The translations under genes were made by a program, and so were the position numbers. The notes under the pieces were generated by a model. That model saw only the letters and a list, made by a program, of their open reading frames with translations. It did no database searches and was not told the origin of the DNA. From positions 1 to 50,132 of the forward strand of contig JAGGSN010000200.1 of assembly GCA_021159005.1 (NCBI GenBank): DNA of 50,132 nt, read 5' to 3'. Source of the stretch: Candidatus Zixiibacteriota bacterium. GTDB taxonomy: Bacteria > Zixibacteria > MSB-5A5 > UBA10806 > 4484-95. Below, piece by piece: positions 2,686-36,356 of the stretch. Each line of letters opens with the position of its first letter. Position 1 is the stretch's first letter.

Positions 2686-4710
2686 ATGACAGCTTTTATA
2701 GAACTATATACTTCCGTAATAATGCAATGGGTATTCGTATCCGACGCAAACCAAATTTTCGCCGGGTTTGATGTCAATGGTATGTTTCCTTTCGATTGTA
2801 TTGGATATATAAAAATGCCAGCCTATATTTTGTTGATGGCGGCAATTTTTGATACATCGGTGATTTTCACTGCGCTAAAAAAAATTAAGATTCCTAACAG
2901 GTCAAGTTCCAAAACAAATTCACAGTCAATTAAAACAAAGTTGACAGAAACAGAAGCATCATCTTTTGGTAAATCTACTGCTAATCAAACGGAAGATTAC
3001 TATGATCGTTTTGAAGATGTCGTTGATAATAACGAAATATTGAAAAACAATAGCTATGCGCCATCATTTTCTATAAACACTCCACAGAATATAGAATTAT
3101 TAGAGCAATTGGAACGAATGAATAAAATTACCCGTATAATAAAATACATATCCTCTACTCTTGATATTGATGAATTGTTTAGCAAATTAATCAGTTCGCT
3201 AACAGAAATTGCCGGATTCCATTGGGCTGCTGTAGTTTTTACTGATGATATGGAGCCTTGGGAAAGCAAATGGAAATTGCCTGATATTAAAAGCATGGAA
3301 AAATATCTTAGGAAATCTATCGGCAAACCTGCTCCTGTTTATTACCGCATAAATAAACTTGAGTTAGCTCCATCTTTAAGGGCGTATTTTAATAAAATGA
3401 ATATAACTAATGCCGCCGTTTCTCCAATTGGCGGCGACATTAAAGCCAGAGGATTCCTGCTTGTAGGCAGTTCTAATCCGGATGGTTTCAATTCACATGA
3501 TGATTTTATGCTTAAGGATATCTTGCAAGTTCTGGATGCTGCCGCAACAAATGCATCAATTCACAGCAACATTAAAAAAGCATATAGAAGCCTTGTGGAG
3601 ACTCGTGAAAGACTAATCCAAGATGAAAAATTTAAAGCTCTTGGAGAAGTAGCTGCCGGTATTGCCCATGATTTTAAAAATATTCTTTCCGCTATTATGG
3701 GGCGGGCGCAGATACTGCTTAAGATAAATGAAGGAGCTAAAAATATTTCTAATGATGTTTTAGTTAAAGGTCTTGAGACTATCGAAAAATCTGCTTTTGA
3801 CGGCATTGAAATTATTTCCCGAATTAACGAATCTACTCATAACAGAATTAAATCACAACTCGTCTATATAAATCTCAGAGAAATAATTAATGATACTATT
3901 GAGATGACAAGGCCCAAGTGGGAGAATAAAGACGCCGGTAAAAACATAACTATCAAAACAAAATTCAAGACAGAACCAATTATTAGAGCTAATCGCCATG
4001 AAATGGTAAGAGTGTTTTCAAATCTTTTGCTAAATGCCGTTGAGGCTATTGAGACAGATGGAGTTATTGAAATAAAAGTTCTGATGGAATCAGATAAGGC
4101 TGTTATTTATTTTAGCGACAACGGGTCGGGAATGAACGAACAAACAGTTAAGATGATATTTGATCCGTATTATACAACTAAAGGGAAAATGGGAACCGGT
4201 CTTGGTTTATCGATTGTGTATACGATAATAACCCGTTATAAAGGCGAGATTATCGTTAATAGCGCTCCTGGCAAGGGAACGACATTTCAAATAACTATTC
4301 CATGTCAGCAGGATGCTCATACTCAAGCCAAAATATCTGTTCTCATAGTAGAGGATGATGTTAATCTTCGGAATGTACTTCATGATATCATTATAGAAAT
4401 AAGCGGGGATGTGTATACTGCAGGAAGTTATAACGAGGCAAATAGAATATTAATGGAACGTCCTTTCGACATGGTTTTAACCGATCTGGGTTTGCCTGAT
4501 GAAGATGGCTGGAAAGTAATCGATAAAGCAAAATATTATTCGCCTGATTCCCTGATAATCCCAATGACAGGATGGCAAAAAGAAATCGATAAAGAAGAAA
4601 TTACATCAAGAGGATTAACAGAAGTGCTGCTAAAGCCATTTAAAATTGAGCAAGTGCAGCAGCTAATTCAAAGAGCAATTATAAGGTATAAAAATGTCCT
4701 TAGAGTTTAA
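2686..4710 (+). CDS. hybrid sensor histidine kinase (GAF-HisKA-HATPase-REC)
   Basis: A 674-residue hybrid kinase starting 11 bp after the previous gene. One hydrophobic segment lies near 44-62, followed by a polar linker and a GAF domain (about 145-295). The HisKA box AAGIAHDFKNILS has the phospho-accepting His328. The HATPase domain (about 425-540) has an N-box (FSNLLLNAVEAI), DNGSGM and GTGLGLSIVYTI. A receiver domain (about 548-670) has acidic EDD, phospho-acceptor Asp600 (LTDLGLPDEDGW) and conserved Lys650. No DNA-binding or enzymatic output domain follows the receiver. The ATG at 2686 has no clear Shine-Dalgarno, so translational coupling is likely. Its last 17 bases overlap the next kinase gene. 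Confidence 0.88.
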   Translation: MTAFIELYTSVIMQWVFVSDANQIFAGFDVNGMFPFDCIGYIKMPAYILLMAAIFDTSVIFTALKKIKIPNRSSSKTNSQSIKTKLTETEASSFGKSTANQTEDYYDRFEDVVDNNEILKNNSYAPSFSINTPQNIELLEQLERMNKITRIIKYISSTLDIDELFSKLISSLTEIAGFHWAAVVFTDDMEPWESKWKLPDIKSMEKYLRKSIGKPAPVYYRINKLELAPSLRAYFNKMNITNAAVSPIGGDIKARGFLLVGSSNPDGFNSHDDFMLKDILQVLDAAATNASIHSNIKKAYRSLVETRERLIQDEKFKALGEVAAGIAHDFKNILSAIMGRAQILLKINEGAKNISNDVLVKGLETIEKSAFDGIEIISRINESTHNRIKSQLVYINLREIINDTIEMTRPKWENKDAGKNITIKTKFKTEPIIRANRHEMVRVFSNLLLNAVEAIETDGVIEIKVLMESDKAVIYFSDNGSGMNEQTVKMIFDPYYTTKGKMGTGLGLSIVYTIITRYKGEIIVNSAPGKGTTFQITIPCQQDAHTQAKISVLIVEDDVNLRNVLHDIIIEISGDVYTAGSYNEANRILMERPFDMVLTDLGLPDEDGWKVIDKAKYYSPDSLIIPMTGWQKEIDKEEITSRGLTEVLLKPFKIEQVQQLIQRAIIRYKNVLRV

Positions 4711-6817
4711 TAGCATTCTTGTTTCGCCTATATTCAAAGCAATAGTATCGAACCCAAATCAAAATTTGGATGCTGATTATTTTGCTCTTATTATTATCGA
4801 TAATAATTTTAATCGATATGAGTTGTTGTTAAGCAAGGAAATCAATAATCTGGCTCAACTTGAAGAAGACATTGAAAAAACAGCACTAAACGCTTGGGAA
4901 TTATGTTGGCAGAACAGCCTAAAATATCTATGCGCAGACGATGATTCTTATAGCAGGAATCCTATCTGCGAAATATTATCCGAAAGCCTGCAATGCCGGA
5001 AAGTTCTAATGGTTCCATACGAGCTTGCGAATATTGGAGGAGGCTTTTTAGTATGGTGCTGGCAAACCCAACCGCCGGATTTTGAAAAAAGCTTTATTGA
5101 AAATGCAACACATATTGTCAAACAGGTATCGATGTCGCTAATGCTTGTTTTTAAAGAACGAAAAAGCCAGGAACTCAACGCCAAATTAGCCGCTTTACTT
5201 GACCTATCTACATCGATTTACTCATCCTTAAACTATACTGATGTCTTAGAAAAAGCCGTTAATTTGTCAATGAAAATTGTCGGGGCTGATGGCGGCACAA
5301 TTTTTACTCTTGATAAAAAAACGGACTTGCTTATGCCGTTAATTACCATCGATACTGAATATGAGGATAAAATATCGCAAATTACTCTGAATATAGGCGA
5401 GGGGATTACTGGTTTGGCGGCGAAAACCGGTAAGGGAATTATATCAAATCATTCCGAAACTGACTCGCGCTCATATCATGTGCCCGGAACTCCTGAGGAT
5501 GAACCCGAATCGCTTATCAGCGTACCGCTAACTTGGTCGGGGGAGGTTTTAGGAGCGATAACGCTGCGCTCAACCAAGTGCAAACAATTCGTTCGGGATG
5601 ATCTTGACATACTTACTATTTTTGCCCGTCAGGTCGCGGACGCCATAAAAAATGCCAAGCTTTACGAGAGTCTCGACAAAGCTTATAAAGAGCTGTCAAA
5701 TACTCAGGAACAATTAATAATGACAGAGAAGCTCAGGGCATTGGGTGAAATGGCTGGCGGTGTGGCTCATGATTTTAATAATGTGCTTGGTACTGTTCTG
5801 GGAAGAACGCAATTATTGATGCGTGAAATTGATAATAGCAGATGGCTAGATCAGCTTAAACAAATCGAAGAAGTTTCTATCAAAGGTGCTGATACTGTTC
5901 AGAAACTGCAAAACTTCACTCGAGTATACAGTACCAGCCAGTTAGAGCAGGTAGAATTGAACGAAGTTGTGGAGGATGCTATTAAGCTAACAAAGCCGCG
6001 ATGGAAAGATGAGAGCCAGCACAAGGAAATAATCATCGACTTGACTTTCAAACACGGCAAGCTTATGCCAATTATGGGAAATCGAGCCGACTTAGTTGAG
6101 GCTATTTCTAATATTATATTGAATGGTGTTGATGCGATAACCGAAAAAGGCGTTATCCAAATCGAAACATTTATGCAAGATGACCGAGCGGTTGTAAAAA
6201 TCAGCGATAATGGCGCAGGCATGTCGGAGAAAACTTTGAACAGAGTATTTTTCCCGTTCTATACAACCAAGGGCAATCAGGGAACCGGTATGGGATTGGC
6301 GGTTGTTTACGGCATTATCAGCCGGCATAAAGGCGAAATCGATGTTGCCTCTAAAGTCAATCGGGGGACAGTTTTTAATATATCGTTTAAAACCATCGAA
6401 GAATTACAAACCAAAACTAAAGTTGAAGATACCAGGGAAGCAATAAGCGATATTAAGGCGAATGTTCTTGTTATTGATGATGATGATAATATCCTTGATG
6501 TGCTTGGCGATATACTTGAATTCCTCGGTCATACTGCGACAAAAGCATCAACAGGCGAAGAAGGAGTTGAATATTTCAAAACCAAAGATTTCGATATCGT
6601 ATTAACCGACCTTGGCATGCCTGGCATCAGCGGATGGGAGGTTACCCGGATATGCAAATCATTGAAACCGGAAGTGCCTGTGGTGATGATATCAGGTTGG
6701 GGTAACCAGATAACCGATGAGATGGTTGCTGAAAGTAAACTTGATGAAGTTATTGCCAAGCCGTTTGAAATGAACAAGATTAAAAATATTATTCAAAGAG
6801 CGCTGGCAAAAAAGTAA
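4694..6817 (+). CDS. hybrid sensor histidine kinase (GAF-HisKA-HATPase-REC), probably soluble
   Basis: A 707-residue kinase without obvious membrane segments. Residues 1-155 look like a diverged GAF-type sensor and 165-325 are a clear GAF domain (DGGTIFTLDKKTDLL, GEGITGLAA). HisKA carries His359 (AGGVAHDFNNVLG). HATPase (about 460-570) has ILNGVDAI, DNGAGMS and GTGMGLAVVYGI. The C-terminal receiver has Asp639 and Lys689 and again no output domain. Its start lies inside the end of the previous kinase gene (17-bp overlap) with AAGG upstream, so the two are co-translated and may phosphorylate in a shared complex. The two hybrid kinases are paralogs of the same architecture, one membrane-tethered and one cytosolic. 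Confidence 0.88.
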   Translation: MSLEFNSILVSPIFKAIVSNPNQNLDADYFALIIIDNNFNRYELLLSKEINNLAQLEEDIEKTALNAWELCWQNSLKYLCADDDSYSRNPICEILSESLQCRKVLMVPYELANIGGGFLVWCWQTQPPDFEKSFIENATHIVKQVSMSLMLVFKERKSQELNAKLAALLDLSTSIYSSLNYTDVLEKAVNLSMKIVGADGGTIFTLDKKTDLLMPLITIDTEYEDKISQITLNIGEGITGLAAKTGKGIISNHSETDSRSYHVPGTPEDEPESLISVPLTWSGEVLGAITLRSTKCKQFVRDDLDILTIFARQVADAIKNAKLYESLDKAYKELSNTQEQLIMTEKLRALGEMAGGVAHDFNNVLGTVLGRTQLLMREIDNSRWLDQLKQIEEVSIKGADTVQKLQNFTRVYSTSQLEQVELNEVVEDAIKLTKPRWKDESQHKEIIIDLTFKHGKLMPIMGNRADLVEAISNIILNGVDAITEKGVIQIETFMQDDRAVVKISDNGAGMSEKTLNRVFFPFYTTKGNQGTGMGLAVVYGIISRHKGEIDVASKVNRGTVFNISFKTIEELQTKTKVEDTREAISDIKANVLVIDDDDNILDVLGDILEFLGHTATKASTGEEGVEYFKTKDFDIVLTDLGMPGISGWEVTRICKSLKPEVPVVMISGWGNQITDEMVAESKLDEVIAKPFEMNKIKNIIQRALAKK

Positions 6818-24104: not shown

Positions 24105-26195
24105 TTGATTAAATTAAGCATCCTATTTACTATAGCTTGTATCTTAATTGCTTCGATTGGAACCGTACAAGCTCAACATATAGAAGATTCATTTCAGTAT
24201 ATCTGTCCTATTCCCGGGTCTGAATTAATTACCAAAGAGATAACAATCGCTTTACGGCATGGGGATACTCTTGATACCGATCATTTTAATTTAGATTCAG
24301 TAGCTATAATCGAGGGAGATACAAGCGGCTTACATGAATATAATACGGTAATCGCCGATGATCAAACAACATTGATTATTAAACCGCGATCCGGGTTTAG
24401 ACCTAATGAGATAGTAACAGTTACAATTAGAGAACAAATCGCTACAATTACAGGGATTTTATGCGATACCGGTTCGTTTAGTTTTACTATCTCTGCTGTA
24501 ACTGAGATACCGCCGGAAAGCAATTATTTTTGGAAAGAACACTTGAAGGAATTAAATAGCAGCATAAAAACTAAAACTGAAATAAAACCGCGAGAAAACA
24601 TGTATACAGGTAAAAATATTTCACTGCCGCTTGATTTCCCCAACCGAACAGTTACTACTAATGTCTGCCCTGACCCCGGATATATATTTCTTGGCAATCT
24701 GTATGGAGATAATGTTTCTAAATACATTATGATTCTTGATAATAATGGATATCCAATTTACTATAAGAAAATGCCATCCCATGGATTGAATTTTACAAAA
24801 CATCCAAACGGCTTGTTGTCATATTTTCTGTATTATGATCATACTATTCATATTATTGATTCTACATATACGGAAGTTAACACCTATCAATGCGAAAATG
24901 GCTATGGTCCCGATACCGATATGCATGATTTCCAGATGCTTGACAATGGTCATGTATTAATCGCAGCTTATGACCCCCAGCCTATCGATATGAGCCAAAT
25001 AGTACCTGGCGGCAGTCCTAATGCTATAGTTACGGGTTTAGTTTTTCAGGAGTTAGATAACGATAGAAACGTAGTATTTCAATGGCGCAGTTGGGATCAT
25101 TTTGAAATTACCGATGCTGCATCAGATATAGCCTTATACAGCAATCGAATTGATTATTGTCATGGAAATACGCTTGAACTTGATTATGACGGCAATATCT
25201 TAATCTCCTGCCGCAACATGGATGAATGCACAAAAATCAACCGTCAAACAGGCGATATTATCTGGCGTTTGGGTGGTGAAAACAATGAATTTACATTTAT
25301 CAACGATACGCGCGGTTTCTCGCATCAGCATGACCTAAGAAGACAGCCAAACGGAAATATTACTCTTTTTGATAATGGCAATCTTCATTCGCAGCAGTAT
25401 TCACGAGCTATAGAATATGAAATAGATGAGATAAATAAAACTGTTACTTTAGTCTGGGAATTTCGCAATCAACCTGATGAATACGCTTCAGTTATGGGCA
25501 ACCAGCAGAGACTTCCTAGCGGTAAAATACTAATAGGCTGGGGCGCGGATAATCCAAATGTTACAGAAATTCTTCCCAATGGTGATAAAACATGGGAGAT
25601 GACATTTGATATTAATACTATTAGCTACCGGGCTTTTCGTTTCCCCTGGCATGGCGTTGCCGAAATACCTTATCTTATTGCAGAAAACTCAAAATATGGT
25701 TTGTATTTAACATTTAACAAATTTGGCGATTCAAGCATAGTAAAATACAATATCTATGTAGATGAACATCCCGAACCAACCACGCTAATCGATTCGACAT
25801 CGAACACATATTTGAATTTTTATAATGTACTTTCTGGTCATATTTATTATATCAGAGTAACCGCAGTAGATAGTCAATCGGTTGAGAGCGATTATTCCAA
25901 TGAAGCTGCGATTAAAGCGAACAACGAAAACATCTACCTTCCGGGCGATGTAAATGGCGACAATAATATTAACGGTAGTGATGTTACTTTCGGTGTTAAT
26001 TACTTCAAGGGAGGGTCTCAGCCGCCCGATTCCTGTTGGAACGATTCAACCTCAAACTGGCATTATTGTGCCGCTGATGTCAACGGCGACTGCTTATTCA
26101 TCGGCTCGGATATTACCTATTATGTAGCTTATTTCCATGGTCAGAACGTGGGACCTACATATTGCCCTCAAACATCGCCGTTTTATGAAGAATAG
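24105..26195 (+). CDS. secreted arylsulfotransferase-like protein with FN3 and dockerin ends, copy 1
   Basis: A 696-residue exoprotein. The TTG start at 24105 has CAGGAG eight bases upstream. A signal peptide ends near AQA (about 23). An Ig-like N-terminal domain (about 28-130) precedes an arylsulfotransferase-type beta-propeller (about 185-520). The propeller has MHDFQMLDNGHVLIAAYD, DYCHGNTLELDYDGN, NRQTGDIIWRLGG and FSHQHDLRRQPNGN, whose His and Arg residues resemble the ASST active-site set. An FN3-like domain (about 525-605) and a dockerin-like pair (GDVNGDNNINGSDV and ADVNGDCLFIGSDI) follow. Whether it transfers sulfate is unproven. It is a tandem paralog of the next gene. Confidence 0.85.
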   Translation: MIKLSILFTIACILIASIGTVQAQHIEDSFQYICPIPGSELITKEITIALRHGDTLDTDHFNLDSVAIIEGDTSGLHEYNTVIADDQTTLIIKPRSGFRPNEIVTVTIREQIATITGILCDTGSFSFTISAVTEIPPESNYFWKEHLKELNSSIKTKTEIKPRENMYTGKNISLPLDFPNRTVTTNVCPDPGYIFLGNLYGDNVSKYIMILDNNGYPIYYKKMPSHGLNFTKHPNGLLSYFLYYDHTIHIIDSTYTEVNTYQCENGYGPDTDMHDFQMLDNGHVLIAAYDPQPIDMSQIVPGGSPNAIVTGLVFQELDNDRNVVFQWRSWDHFEITDAASDIALYSNRIDYCHGNTLELDYDGNILISCRNMDECTKINRQTGDIIWRLGGENNEFTFINDTRGFSHQHDLRRQPNGNITLFDNGNLHSQQYSRAIEYEIDEINKTVTLVWEFRNQPDEYASVMGNQQRLPSGKILIGWGADNPNVTEILPNGDKTWEMTFDINTISYRAFRFPWHGVAEIPYLIAENSKYGLYLTFNKFGDSSIVKYNIYVDEHPEPTTLIDSTSNTYLNFYNVLSGHIYYIRVTAVDSQSVESDYSNEAAIKANNENIYLPGDVNGDNNINGSDVTFGVNYFKGGSQPPDSCWNDSTSNWHYCAADVNGDCLFIGSDITYYVAYFHGQNVGPTYCPQTSPFYEE

Positions 26196-26291
26196 CGCTT
26201 GAGGGAGTGATAATAAAGCCAGCCTATTAAAAAGTTGTGTCAGCTTATATTTCATAGACAGAAAACGCTTATAAACCACCTAATAATCTAC

Positions 26292-26320
26292 TTGACATGT
26301 TTATGTGATTTATATATTTT
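26292..26320 (+). promoter_or_regulatory. candidate sigma70-type promoter of the second arylsulfotransferase-like gene
   Basis: TTGACA at 26292-26297 and TATTTT at 26315-26320 with the ideal 17-bp spacer. The transcript would have a leader of about 140 bases before the ATG at 26468. It implies the second copy has its own promoter. Confidence 0.45.
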
Positions 26321-26467
26321 ATATAATGATTCTTCTATGAATCTCTGTTGCCAATCAGGGATTTTGCCGCAGAGTGTTTCTGTGGGCTGGATTGTAATTA
26401 AGGGAGATTGTAAGATTAACAGAATAAGTATTTATAGCAGTATATTTCATCCGGAGGGATAGTCTAT

Positions 26468-28552
26468 ATGAAAAAGCTACGGATTTTTAGCGCAGTGATA
26501 TTTCTATTAATCGTTTTAATAGGGACGCTTAATGCCGGGTATTTTAACGATACATTTCAATATATTTCTCCCAAACCAGGGGCAGAGCTGGTTTCAAAAA
26601 GCTCTAATATTATAATCCGCGCCGGCAGTATTTTGCCTGCGAGTAATTTCAATTTATCAGCCATTGCCGTAATCGAAGGCTCATCAAGCGGTAATCACAA
26701 TTATAATGCAGTTATTGCCGATGATCAGCAGACTATTATTATAAAGCCAATAGCTCCTTTCCAGCCGGGTGAGACTGTTAATGTTATTCTTAATGCCCGT
26801 TTGATTACAGCTAAAACCAATCGAATACAATCGTCGACTTTCAGCTTCACGATTTCTCCTAAAACCGAAAGGCTATTGGATGATTCATTTTATTGGGATG
26901 AATATTTCGATATATCTTCTGATTTGACTGCAGGGTCCGAAAGTGAACCCAATCCGAAACTTAATAGCAATAGGGATGTTTCTTTGCCGTATAGTTTTCC
27001 GAATATAACAGTAAATTGTATAGATAATCCTGGGCAGGGTTTCATTTTCCTTGGCAATATATTCCCCAACACCGCTCATTATTTAATGATTCTTGATAAT
27101 ACCGGATACCCTGTTTATTATAAGGAAATGCCGACTGCCGGTATGGATTTTAAAAAGCATGATAATGGTTTATTGAGCTATTTTTTATACCACACTCGCT
27201 ATTTTTATGTAATGGATTCAACATACACTGTGGTTGATTCTTTTCGATGCGGCAATGGTTATGAGGATTATACCGATATGCACGATTTTCAGATTCTCGA
27301 TAATGGACATGTGCTGTTGGCGGCTTATGACCCCCAGACTATTGATATGAGCGATATAGTGCCCGGCGGCAATACTGCGGCTTGCGTGATAGGTTATATT
27401 GTTCAAGAGCTGGATAATTTTAAAAATGTGGTGTTTCAATGGCGAAGCTGGGATCATTTCGAAATTACCGATGCTGCGCCGGATATAAATTTACAGCACT
27501 ATAGAATCGATTATTGTCATGGCAACACCTTAGAGCCGGATTATGACGGCAACCTGTTAATTTCATGCCGCAACATGGATGAATGCACGAAAATAAACCG
27601 TCAGACAGGAGAAATTATATGGCGTCTGGGCGGCTCAAATAACGAATTTGTCTTCATAAACGACTCGCGAGGCTTTTCTCATCAGCATGATATCCGCAGG
27701 CTGTCAAATGGTAATATCACATTGTATGATAATGGCAACTTCCATGAACCGCGGTATTCGAGAGCGATTGAATATGAAATCGATGAGGACAATAAAACCA
27801 TTGCGCAGGTATGGGAATTTAGCAATACACCTGATGAATTCGGGGTAGTTATGGGAAATACTCAGAGGCTTGCCGGCGGCAATACTTTTATAGGCTGGGG
27901 TTCTGACCAGCCGATTGCCACAGAGGTTAAACCGGATGGTTCGAAGGCTTTCGAACTGTCTTTTGATGATGGCGTCAAATGCTACCGCTCGTTTCGATTC
28001 CCGTGGCGCGGCATTGCCGCCAGTCCTTATCTGATTGCCGAAAATATCGATGCCGGCTTCCATTTGGTTTTTAACAAGTTTGGTGATAACAGAATTGTTA
28101 AGTATTATATCTATATGGGCAAATCACCGGAACCGACTACAATTGTCGATTCAACATCGAATACTTATATGAATATTTATGGCGTTAGAGATGATACCAC
28201 ATACTATTTCAGGGTTACAGCTGTGGATAGCTATTCAAACGAGAGCATTTTTTCTAATGAGGTAGAGATTATAGCCGATCTCAATCCCATTTATATACCC
28301 GGCGATATAAATGGCGATGGGAATATAATTAATAGCGATATTACTTTTGGCATTTGGTATTTCAAAGGAACAACTACTCCTCCTGATTCCTGCTGGAATG
28401 ATTCAACAAATGCCTGGCTGTATTCTGCGGCGGATGTTAATGGCGATTGTCAATTTTCCGGCTCTGATATTATCTATATCTTGCGATTTTTAGTCGGTTT
28501 TGGAAACCCGCCTAAATATTGCCCGCAAACTCCTCCTTTTAATGAGGAATAA
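26468..28552 (+). CDS. secreted arylsulfotransferase-like protein with FN3 and dockerin ends, copy 2
   Basis: A 694-residue paralog of the preceding gene with the same order: signal peptide (about 1-24), Ig-like domain, arylsulfotransferase-type propeller, FN3 and a two-repeat dockerin-like end. The propeller core is almost unchanged between copies (for example ISCRNMDECTKINRQTG and WRSWDHFEITDAA). The N-terminal domain and the dockerin linker have drifted more. CCGGAGGG precedes the ATG. Cysteines flank the dockerin linker in both copies. Duplication with retained propeller residues suggests both are active on related substrates or acceptors (inference). Confidence 0.85.
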   Translation: MKKLRIFSAVIFLLIVLIGTLNAGYFNDTFQYISPKPGAELVSKSSNIIIRAGSILPASNFNLSAIAVIEGSSSGNHNYNAVIADDQQTIIIKPIAPFQPGETVNVILNARLITAKTNRIQSSTFSFTISPKTERLLDDSFYWDEYFDISSDLTAGSESEPNPKLNSNRDVSLPYSFPNITVNCIDNPGQGFIFLGNIFPNTAHYLMILDNTGYPVYYKEMPTAGMDFKKHDNGLLSYFLYHTRYFYVMDSTYTVVDSFRCGNGYEDYTDMHDFQILDNGHVLLAAYDPQTIDMSDIVPGGNTAACVIGYIVQELDNFKNVVFQWRSWDHFEITDAAPDINLQHYRIDYCHGNTLEPDYDGNLLISCRNMDECTKINRQTGEIIWRLGGSNNEFVFINDSRGFSHQHDIRRLSNGNITLYDNGNFHEPRYSRAIEYEIDEDNKTIAQVWEFSNTPDEFGVVMGNTQRLAGGNTFIGWGSDQPIATEVKPDGSKAFELSFDDGVKCYRSFRFPWRGIAASPYLIAENIDAGFHLVFNKFGDNRIVKYYIYMGKSPEPTTIVDSTSNTYMNIYGVRDDTTYYFRVTAVDSYSNESIFSNEVEIIADLNPIYIPGDINGDGNIINSDITFGIWYFKGTTTPPDSCWNDSTNAWLYSAADVNGDCQFSGSDIIYILRFLVGFGNPPKYCPQTPPFNEE

Positions 28553-31298: not shown

Positions 31299-31326
31299 TT
31301 GACAAACTTACTGTTTGTGATAAATT
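31299..31326 (+). promoter_or_regulatory. candidate promoter of the kinase/transporter operon
   Basis: TTGACA (31299-31304) with TAAATT (31321-31326) at 16 bp. The proposed -10 lies inside the CRP-type palindrome at 31316-31331, so a bound regulator would probably repress or reposition RNA polymerase. Confidence 0.35.
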
Positions 31327-33818: not shown

Positions 33819-35852
33819 ATGCCCAAAGTATTATTAGTTGATGATGAAAATAAACTTCGAATATCTTTAGCAAAACGTTTAAACCTAAGGGGACTTGACA
33901 CTATCGGCTTGGATAATGGCGAGGATGCTATAAAGATAATTCGCAGCGATAGTGATATAGATGTAATTGTGCTGGACAGGAAAATGCCGGGGATGAGCGG
34001 CGAACAGACGCTCAAGGAAATGAAATTGTTTAGGCCGGAACTTCAGGTAATTGTATTAACCGGTCACGCTTCTATGGAATCAGCAGTGGAAACAGGCAAG
34101 TTGGATGCTTATTCATACATTCAAAAACCATGCGATCTGGATGAGTTAATTAAAATAATAGAGAAAGCCCGCGAAGATAAAGTTCATGTTATGGCGCGGC
34201 ATGAAGTGCCCCATGTCAAGAAGGGTTCGGTATTGAAATGGCTGAAAGGTTCGCATAATTCTCGACCGGGAGTTATAATACTTGGCTTACTTCTATTTTC
34301 TTTGATTGTATTAACTCCGACAACCGACCGCTTGATGGAACTGTTGTCATTTCAGAAAACCGGCCAGATAACTGATTATAATATGGGTTACGCCAATTAT
34401 ATGAAAATGAAAGATGGCGAGAATATTGCAGATTATTACAGCCGTAATTATAAAATCGGTGATAAAATCCTACTAAATCAGGGCGAATCGCCACGATATG
34501 CGATGTCTCCCAGCAAGGCAGCGACAAAAGCTAAGGTTATGCTTGGTATTTTAGTGGTTGCTGCCTTATTTTGGGCTACCGGTGCTGTGCCAATTGGAAT
34601 AACAGCTCTGCTGGTTGGTGTATTCATGTATTTTTTCGGTGTTCTTAAACCTGATGATATCGCCAAAGCCTATGCCAAGGATGCTGTAATTTTTATATTT
34701 GGCGTGCTGGCAATCTCTACCGCAATTAGCAGCACCGGACTCGACCGTCGAATAGGATTACTGCTTCTGGCTCCGGCCACTAATTTAAAACGAATGATGT
34801 TTATTTTCCTGCCGCTTTTTGCGGTAGCTTGTTCGTTTGTGTCGGAGCATGCTTTAATAGCGTTTATTCTGCCGCTTATTATGATTGTTTATGTTTCCTC
34901 TATTAGAGCAGTTGGTCTCAAGCAAGATAAAGCACTGGCAACTATGTTTATTTTGTCGCTTTGTTTTGCAGCTAACTCGGGGGGGCCTGGTTCGCCAGCC
35001 GCTGGCGGCCGTAATGCCGTTATGCTTGGCATACTTTCCGATTACGGAGTGGCTCCTTCTTTCGGTCAATGGGTACAGTATGGATTGCCATTTGTGCCGG
35101 TTATGGCGCTTGTGATAGGATTATATTTCTATATTACTTTTCATCGCAAGATAGCCGTAAAATCGCTAAATATATCATCGTTAGTAAAACAAGCTTCGGA
35201 TAAAATCGGACCTATGACTAAAAAAGAATATATAACTGCAATAGCGCTAATTGTTCTGATTCTATTATGGGTTACTGTCAGCGATAAGTTTGGCATGGGC
35301 GGCCCTGTGATACTGATAATAGTAATTCTCAATTTTCTAAGGATTATCCGATGGCGCAATATCGTTTCGATACCGTGGGATGTAGTCGCATTGTATGCCA
35401 GCGCTTGTGCTCTGGGAAAGGGTTTGGCTGTTACCGGTGCAGCTTTATATATAGCAGACGGTTTTGTTAGTATCCTGCCAAGTTTTATGCAAAGCGGGGA
35501 GGGTTTAGCAGTTGCAGCCAGCTTGTTTACCGGTATCGCCACCAATTTTATGAGTGATGGCGCTACTGTTTCCGCCATAGGGCCTATAACTATTCCAATG
35601 GCTGCTATATCCGGTACGCATCCGTGGATGATAGGTTTTGCCACAGCTTTTGCTTCATCATTTGCCCATATGCTGATAATCGGCACGCCCAATAATGCTA
35701 TTGCTTATGCATTAGCCAAAGACCCTGTAACAGGCGAACAATTGGTAACTCTTTCCGATTTTCTCAAGCACGGATCTGTTATATTGGTTCTTTCTTTTGC
35801 GGTTTTGTGGGCATGGGTATTTTTTGGATATTGGAGATTAATTGGTTTTTAA
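33819..35852 (+). CDS. response-regulator receiver domain fused to an SLC13/DASS-type anion transporter
   Basis: A 677-residue fusion in one uninterrupted frame. The N-terminal receiver (1-122) is intact: Asp8/Asp9, phospho-acceptor Asp53 (VLDRKMPGMSG), Thr81 and Lys103 (QKPCDLDEL). After a basic linker, a first helix lies at about 150-167, then a 70-residue polar loop (168-238), then about ten further helices with SLC13 landmarks: ALFWATGAVPIGITALL, AYAKDAVIFIFGVLAIS, FAANSGGPGSPAAGGRNA and ATNFMSDGATVSAIGP. The two SNT motifs of characterised DASS carriers read SEH (342-344) and SDG (579-581), so the substrate may not be an ordinary dicarboxylate. Inference: phosphorylation of the receiver gates transport directly. 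Confidence 0.85.
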   Translation: MPKVLLVDDENKLRISLAKRLNLRGLDTIGLDNGEDAIKIIRSDSDIDVIVLDRKMPGMSGEQTLKEMKLFRPELQVIVLTGHASMESAVETGKLDAYSYIQKPCDLDELIKIIEKAREDKVHVMARHEVPHVKKGSVLKWLKGSHNSRPGVIILGLLLFSLIVLTPTTDRLMELLSFQKTGQITDYNMGYANYMKMKDGENIADYYSRNYKIGDKILLNQGESPRYAMSPSKAATKAKVMLGILVVAALFWATGAVPIGITALLVGVFMYFFGVLKPDDIAKAYAKDAVIFIFGVLAISTAISSTGLDRRIGLLLLAPATNLKRMMFIFLPLFAVACSFVSEHALIAFILPLIMIVYVSSIRAVGLKQDKALATMFILSLCFAANSGGPGSPAAGGRNAVMLGILSDYGVAPSFGQWVQYGLPFVPVMALVIGLYFYITFHRKIAVKSLNISSLVKQASDKIGPMTKKEYITAIALIVLILLWVTVSDKFGMGGPVILIIVILNFLRIIRWRNIVSIPWDVVALYASACALGKGLAVTGAALYIADGFVSILPSFMQSGEGLAVAASLFTGIATNFMSDGATVSAIGPITIPMAAISGTHPWMIGFATAFASSFAHMLIIGTPNNAIAYALAKDPVTGEQLVTLSDFLKHGSVILVLSFAVLWAWVFFGYWRLIGF

Positions 35853-35867
35853 ATAAGGATGGGTATT

Positions 35868-36356
35868 ATGTCTGACAAAATTAAGCTATTAATAGTAGAT
35901 GATGAGATAAAATTTCTGGAGTCTGTCGCTCGCCGACTTGAAATGAGGGATTTTGATGTAACCAAAGCCTCCAGCGGCGAAGTAGCTGTTGAAGCCGCCA
36001 GTTCTGGTAAATTCGACTTGGCTTTGTTAGACCTGAAAATGCCGGGTATGGATGGCAAACAGGTGCTCGAAATTTTGAAAAAGGAGCATAAGTACCTGGA
36101 GGTTATCATTCTTACCGGTCGCGGCTCAATGGATTCAGCTGTGGAATGCACCAAACTTGGTGCTTTTAGCTACCTGCCCAAACCTTATGAACTGAACAAT
36201 CTTCTTGAAATTCTCAATAAGGCATATCAAGCAAGATTGAAAAAGAAATTTGAATCAGACCAGGACCGGATGCAGAAAATCTTAGATATGGCGGCTGATT
36301 CAAGCCCTCTGGCGATTTTACGTGAACTGCGCAAACTTGATGATGAAGAAAAATAG
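35868..36356 (+). CDS. stand-alone response-regulator receiver protein
   Basis: About 162 residues from the ATG at 35868, placed eight bases after AAGGA; the ATG at 35859 overlaps that site and is less likely. The receiver is intact with Asp11/Asp12, Asp55 (LLDLKMPGMDG), Thr83 and Lys105. A short helical tail (about 120-162, rich in charged residues) replaces a DNA-binding domain. It lies 15 bp after the receiver-transporter gene. The receiver resembles that of the fusion (both have LTGxxSMxSAVE), suggesting local duplication. It could be a phosphate sink, or the diffusible partner of the same kinase. Confidence 0.88.
   Translation: MSDKIKLLIVDDEIKFLESVARRLEMRDFDVTKASSGEVAVEAASSGKFDLALLDLKMPGMDGKQVLEILKKEHKYLEVIILTGRGSMDSAVECTKLGAFSYLPKPYELNNLLEILNKAYQARLKKKFESDQDRMQKILDMAADSSPLAILRELRKLDDEEK

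Follow-up and report, generated by a model that had tools for sequence, protein, structure and literature searches.

A receiver domain fused to a DASS-fold carrier in a conserved histidine kinase operon of Candidatus Zixiibacteriota

Results

Organization of the locus

The window, a 50,132-nucleotide stretch of one contig from a Candidatus Zixiibacteriota genome (3.66 Mb in 241 contigs), contains four forward-strand genes in series, separated by gaps of 46, 25 and 6 bases (Table 1). According to Pfam, their order is a kinase with dCache_1, HisKA and HATPase domains, a CBS-pair protein, a protein joining a receiver to a carrier (REC·carrier) and a stand-alone receiver, REC2. An initial annotation, made from the sequence alone, had described the neighbours of the fusion as a Cache-domain kinase, a CBS pair and a free receiver, and Pfam agrees with it on all three. 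A gap of 292 bases lies 5' of the kinase gene. The promoter-like site listed upstream of the kinase should be regarded as weak; a scan of the region for such consensus matches returned 28 sites against 16.4 expected by chance.

The genes preceding the kinase encode MlaE, an ABC-type ATPase (assigned by sequence) and MlaD (Pfam). We place them outside the conserved unit because the neighbours differ in relatives: apart from the kinase, CBS and REC2 genes, nothing is conserved around the fusion loci. Further upstream (24105-28552) lie two arylsulfotransferase-like (ASST) genes, one with a weak dockerin match, which are followed by these MlaE, ABC-type and MlaD genes. A separate 707-residue open reading frame of the window (4694-6817) has a receiver match in its C-terminal part (6461-6814) and is possibly a hybrid kinase.

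Table 1. Features of the four-gene operon and its upstream region (positions in the window)
Feature	Position	Strand	Details and basis
Promoter-like site 5' of the kinase	31299..31326	+	TTGACA-16-TAAATT; weak, consensus match only
Sensor histidine kinase, 563 aa	31507..33198	+	TM 31-49, periplasmic dCache_1 57-277, TM 292-310, HisKA with H349 (H-E-I-N-N), HATPase_c
CBS-pair protein, 182 aa	33245..33793	+	Pfam CBS, two stretches
REC·carrier fusion, 677 aa	33819..35852	+	Open frame, Pfam, orthologues, AlphaFold2
Receiver domain, residues 4-114	33828..34160	+	D8/D9 acidic pocket, D53 phospho-acceptor (codon 33975-33977), T81, K103
Conserved basic linker, about residues 127-150 (...KGSVLKWLKGSHNSRPG), predicted cytoplasmic	34197..34268	+	Invariant S137, W141, G144, R149, P150
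First transmembrane helix, about residues 151-169	34269..34325	+	Hydropathy; model helix 150-165
Extended TM1-TM2 loop, about 62 aa, predicted periplasmic	34326..34511	+	Model and hydropathy; the DASS fold gives the inferred topology
SLC13/DASS-fold carrier, Pfam residues 233-673	34515..35837	+	S342-E343-H344 and S579-D580-G581 replace SNT; GGRN loop with R398
REC2, stand-alone receiver, 165 aa, intact pocket	35859..36356	+	Conserved C-terminal tail of about 45 aa ending ILRELRKLDDEEK

The fusion is intact and recurs across the phylum

The third gene is a single unbroken frame of 677 residues with an ATG start, and both of its domains exceed the Pfam cut-offs: Response_reg (PF00072) covers residues 4-114 with 83.3 bits (cut-off 30.2) and Na_sulph_symp (PF00939) residues 233-673 with 118.4 bits (cut-off 27), while CitMHS is also matched with 79.7 bits (cut-off 31.9). 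An AlphaFold2 model built from 28 sequences shows a receiver fold and a DASS fold (mean pLDDT 76, pTM 0.67), the relative placement of the two domains being unreliable. In Foldseek comparisons the model retrieves VcINDY, NaCT and Pho90 and, as a separate set of matches, receiver structures including that of Spo0F. The carrier part reaches TM-scores of 0.78-0.80 by target length with VcINDY and NaCT, and E values of 1e-13 to 1e-15 with VcINDY, NaCT and NaS1 assign it to the DASS fold.

Relatives were searched in 39 genomes and then in a 132-genome survey of the phylum. Full-length fusions, 64-74% identical to the window protein, were found 33 times, in 30 genomes or records of which most belong to Candidatus Zixiibacteriota: 32 loci in 29 phylum genomes, with open frames of 677-728 residues, and one more in an unclassified MAG (L011). 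The carrier is present in 34 genomes, those beyond the 29 having partial, contig-edge or split copies, and its spread is patchy but broad (families f1, f2, f5, f7, f9, f12, f15, f16 and f18 in the numbering of the search). A contig scan with an exact peptide pattern gave 4 loci (3 labelled Zixiibacteriota and 1 unclassified MAG) and missed most members of the phylum. Plasmid-borne relatives yielded no REC-carrier fusion, their coverage of the query reaching 68% at most.

The initial annotation had proposed one intact frame joining receiver to carrier, to be given up if the fusion proved absent from all relatives or caused by an assembly or frameshift error; the claim survived this search. That the fusion is an artefact of assembly, frameshift or annotation has, in our judgement, a negligible chance of being true. 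The window is indeed one contig of a fragmented genome, and the closed genome G005 has its fusion split between two distant places beside masked bases, but the 33 intact fusions share an identical junction and a conserved linker; with 32 full-length loci in the phylum and one in an unclassified MAG, we consider frameshift and misassembly excluded. The two parts in G005:C1 (L087, near 3366133, and L071, near 2682664) lie about 683 kb apart, one of them beside a masked run, and a copy in G007 (L089) has masked bases within the carrier. These irregularities may reflect rearrangement or a masking artefact.

The fused receiver keeps its phosphorylation site

The receiver of the fusion has all the elements of a phosphorylatable domain, namely the acidic pocket, the phospho-accepting Asp, the Thr/Ser and the Lys. 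The residues named in the initial annotation (Asp8/9, Asp53, Thr81 and Lys103) are present, and across 28 aligned fusion orthologues D8, D53, T81 and K103 show no variation, while 27 have D9. In six close pairs (NG86), dN/dS is 0.03-0.13 for the receiver, 0.04-0.06 for the carrier and 0-0.14 for the linker between them. Judged from these alignments, the REC·carrier fusion is conserved and under purifying selection.

Receiver specificity was judged from the order of search matches and from a tree built on selected receivers. All fused receivers group in a single clade (100/98) whose sister is the REC2 clade (96/91 for the pair), and REC2 is also the closest to the fused receiver among about 55 receiver matches in the same genome. 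This sister relationship, together with the ranking in the genome of origin, suggests that the two receivers share a kinase. We infer a tandem duplication followed by fusion, after which one kinase would serve both receivers.

Conservation of the operon and a kinase-less clade

Gene neighbourhoods were surveyed by tblastn with widened flanks, some loci showing only the C-terminal part of the kinase. In all 30 loci whose fusion has an intact pocket, the kinase gene precedes the fusion and REC2 follows it; the CBS gene accompanies 27 of the 30, two of these with a second CBS gene in tandem, and is absent from L045/L091, L047/L092 and L053/L093.

Three second copies, all in one genus (L074, L075 and L090, on G087:C46, G088:C3 and G089:C6), consist of the CBS gene and the fusion; neither kinase nor REC2 was found in the stretch of 10-11 kb examined at each. 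All three carry Q in place of D9 and retain D53, T81 and K103. In the receiver tree they form a single clade nested among the fused receivers, and the loss of D9 and of the kinase was therefore one event and not three. Every fusion adjacent to a kinase keeps D8, D9, D53, T81 and K103, and damage to the pocket occurs only where the kinase is missing. The D9Q copies offer a natural kinase-independent variant for comparison.

Kinase, CBS protein and REC2

Both HisKA and HATPase_c exceed their cut-offs in the first gene, which thus encodes a dedicated kinase, and H349, E350 and N353 are invariant in 12 kinase orthologues. The model of its dCache domain (pLDDT 82.7), which has no sequence relative in the PDB, finds the KinD sensor as its best structural match there; DctB, further down, and amino-acid receptors are also matched. 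The likeness of the model to KinD and DctB is compatible with a small-carboxylate or amino-acid signal.

The CBS protein scores 27.3 bits against NF041630, the model of the cyclic-di-AMP CBS protein CbpB (cut-off 125), reaches no named CBS family and has only weak PDB matches, to uncharacterised proteins. Calling it a nucleotide-sensing accessory, as had been done at first, was a guess from CBS homology that these comparisons do not bear out, for a gene missing from 3 of 30 intact operons. REC2 shows no Pfam match to an output domain, nor does its C-terminal tail match any Pfam model. The tail of about 45 residues is conserved across orthologues, which makes it a candidate docking element.

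No DNA-binding (HTH) or enzymatic output domain was recognised in the four-gene operon with Pfam and NCBI models, leaving the carrier as the only recognisable effector. Likewise, Pfam recognised no HPt or hybrid-kinase intermediate in the operon, and the term "two-component system" therefore fits better than the "phosphorelay" of the initial annotation.

The carrier departs from canonical DASS proteins

In VcINDY, two SNT motifs bind the substrate and contribute to the Na1 and Na2 sites (PMC9098524, PMC7553777). By alignment, the carrier of the fusion has the same two-hairpin layout as VcINDY, LaINDY and NaCT, but its SNT motifs are replaced by SEH (342-344) and SDG (579-581), both invariant in the 28 orthologues, and its first glycine-rich loop ends in GGRN, with R398. 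It remains below the NCBI model TIGR00785 (dass), with 162.2 bits against a curated cut-off of 198.6. The earlier description as a full SLC13-type carrier thus holds for the fold and the Pfam assignment and fails for the substrate and Na+ motifs.

Among 15 DASS proteins sampled from the phylum, all carriers linked to receivers or CBS proteins (groups A-D) have altered motifs. Two without receiver or CBS neighbours in the stretches examined (C206 of the source genome and G020:C73) keep SNT and TPPN; in the G010 protein one motif is altered and the neighbour is of a different kind. LaINDY, where Arg and His side chains stand in for the Na+ ions, provides a different solution: such basic surrogates were not seen at the two motifs of the window carrier, which has acidic residues there instead. 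These acidic residues at both Asn positions suggest a different ion coupling or substrate. By analogy with Ks-Amt5 (PMC5764959), the altered substrate site could also mean a repurposed, non-transporting receptor.

Discussion

Proposed mechanism and alternatives

We propose that the operon forms a two-component system complete in itself, with a secondary transporter, gated through its fused receiver, as the direct output; we consider this reading somewhat better than an even bet. Kinase control of the carrier through the fused receiver is the simplest interpretation because the operon has no DNA-binding or enzymatic output. Mechanistically, a periplasmic signal would be read by the dCache kinase, which would autophosphorylate on H349 and donate its phosphoryl group to D53 in the receiver that the carrier bears at its cytoplasmic N-terminus. 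For the DASS family an N-terminus in the cytoplasm is established, and this topology together with the basic linker puts the receiver within reach of the cytoplasmic kinase domain. Phosphorylation of D53 would alter the packing of the receiver on the carrier, or on its dimer, and so shift carrier activity. REC2 would compete for, or buffer, the kinase of the fused receiver and may bind the carrier or the CBS protein via its conserved tail, while the CBS-pair protein would supply a cytoplasmic metabolite input. Phosphotransfer, gating and its sign, and these roles of REC2 and the CBS protein are what we infer.

The main rival is a transceptor working in the reverse direction, where occupancy of the carrier, or flux through it, would alter the phosphorylation or dephosphorylation of the fused receiver and tune the kinase and REC2, with REC2 acting elsewhere in the cell. 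Kinases linked to transporters do exist, as in the SLC5-STAC kinases (PMC9100948, PMC7096432), and in Ks-Amt5 a repurposed carrier has lost transport (PMC5764959); here the substrate site of the carrier is altered, and REC2 with its conserved tail is present in every intact operon. A sensor carrier feeding back on the kinase would, moreover, equally predict a conserved operon with intact receivers. Nevertheless, no output domain was recognised in REC2 and no partner was found for it, the kinase already possesses a sensor of its own in the dCache domain, and receivers normally accept a signal rather than serve as inputs, so that we hold this reversal to be unlikely.

A further proposal, to which we give clearly less credence, is that the fused receiver acts as a membrane-tethered phosphate sink or kinase anchor that times REC2 signalling and leaves transport unaffected. 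One kinase with two sister receivers in every intact operon is what such a sink would look like, and CheY1/CheY2 of Sinorhizobium are a known example of the arrangement. A sink, however, has no need of fusion to a carrier, the linker to TM1 is conserved, and related modules tie REC and CBS domains to carriers in other arrangements. Very improbable, finally, is a receiver that serves mainly as a structural or dimerisation module in which phosphorylation is no longer relevant: the clade with the damaged pocket does retain an otherwise conserved fusion, and the C-terminal receiver of another carrier (L076) has Asn at the acceptor position, but D8, D9, D53, T81 and K103 are kept wherever a kinase adjoins, the damage being confined to copies without one.

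Comparison with known systems

Gating of the carrier by its receiver, as we propose, has its best-documented parallel, by analogy, in the SPX domain of the yeast carriers Pho87 and Pho90, where removal of SPX raises Pi uptake up to eightfold (PMC7381174). Like the fusion, Pho87, Pho90 and Pho91 (Pho90 structures 8R33-8R35) combine a DASS-fold carrier and an N-terminal cytoplasmic regulatory domain in one polypeptide. In contrast to the phosphorylatable receiver and dedicated kinase of the window, their SPX domain binds inositol pyrophosphates; these proteins are eukaryotic, and the substrate of Pho90 is phosphate.

The SLC5-STAC kinases (CbrA, CrbS and RpuS) also bring a secondary-carrier fold and two-component signalling together in one polypeptide. 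There, however, the carrier is joined to the kinase, on the input side, whereas in the window it is joined to the receiver, on the output side; the carrier family differs, no STAC domain was found in the window system, and the window kinase, unlike that of a carrier-kinase transceptor, is encoded apart from the carrier and has a dCache sensor of its own. Ks-Amt5 (PMC5764959) likewise joins a transporter fold to two-component machinery, in an environmental phylum, but it carries an Amt fold on a kinase and works as a non-transporting ammonium sensor whose response regulator has not been identified. VcINDY, LaINDY and NaCT, which share the carrier fold, have no receiver and show SNT where the window protein has SEH and SDG.

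DctB and KinD are, like the window kinase, dCache sensor kinases, a pyruvate complex being known for KinD. DctB acts via a sigma54 transcription factor and KinD via the Spo0 phosphorelay, while the window operon, unlike these systems, encodes no DNA-binding partner.

Two-component systems are taught as sensors that change transcription or second messengers. Carriers fused to kinases are already known (CbrA, CrbS, RpuS and Ks-Amt5), and for a receiver fused to a carrier we found no description in the open-licence papers searched; the parts of the system are familiar and the wiring is new. If true, kinase gating of the carrier would give bacteria a direct, fast and reversible phospho-control of nutrient or ion flux. 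The fusion would be a compact, testable construct for receiver gating of an elevator-type transporter and a bacterial parallel to SPX/Pho90, and it draws attention to a set of DASS-fold carriers whose substrate site has been rebuilt.

Related modules in the phylum

Receivers and CBS domains are tied to DASS-fold carriers of the phylum as N-terminal fusions, as C-terminal fusions, as separate genes and through a REC·CBS fusion. The last belongs to a second module, found in seven or more genomes (G005, G071, G107, G112, G106, G013, G047, where it is truncated by the contig, and in part G007), which consists of a histidine kinase, a REC·REC protein, a DASS-fold carrier with a longer first loop and the REC·CBS protein. 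Its kinase is 31-33% identical to the window kinase and also has a dCache domain. Carriers beside a CBS gene and without receivers were found in G037:C39, G094, G022:C121, G033 and C15 of the source genome. That these parts have been recombined repeatedly argues strongly, if indirectly, for joint action of receiver, CBS protein and carrier.

Taken globally, the multiple REC/CBS-DASS arrangements, together with SulP/SLC26 carriers accompanied by dCache kinases and receivers, would make phospho-controlled uptake general in the phylum. We put forward tentatively, at a little under even chances, a class of bacterial systems in which histidine kinases directly gate carriers.

Several individual loci complete this survey. 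In G013:C148 (L096, 2962-15764) the second module and a window-type operon are about 2.5 kb apart and divergently oriented. In G001:C273 (L076, 3974-6469) a DASS-fold carrier bears at its C-terminus a receiver (Pfam 53.8 bits) in which Asn occupies the phospho-Asp position, and not every fused receiver is therefore phosphorylatable; this carrier adjoins a CBS-pair gene, with no kinase gene nearby. On C9 of the source genome (L100:325-7098), a cluster encodes in order a cytidylate-kinase-like·REC protein, a dCache kinase 32% identical to the window kinase, a receiver, a DHp-like protein, another receiver and a SulP-STAS carrier of 714 residues. SulP carriers related to the latter (50-66% identity) were found in 26 further genomes of the phylum; among 20 SulP loci, that of the source genome included, 14 have a receiver beside the SulP gene and 3 more show a kinase-like part running to the end of the flank.
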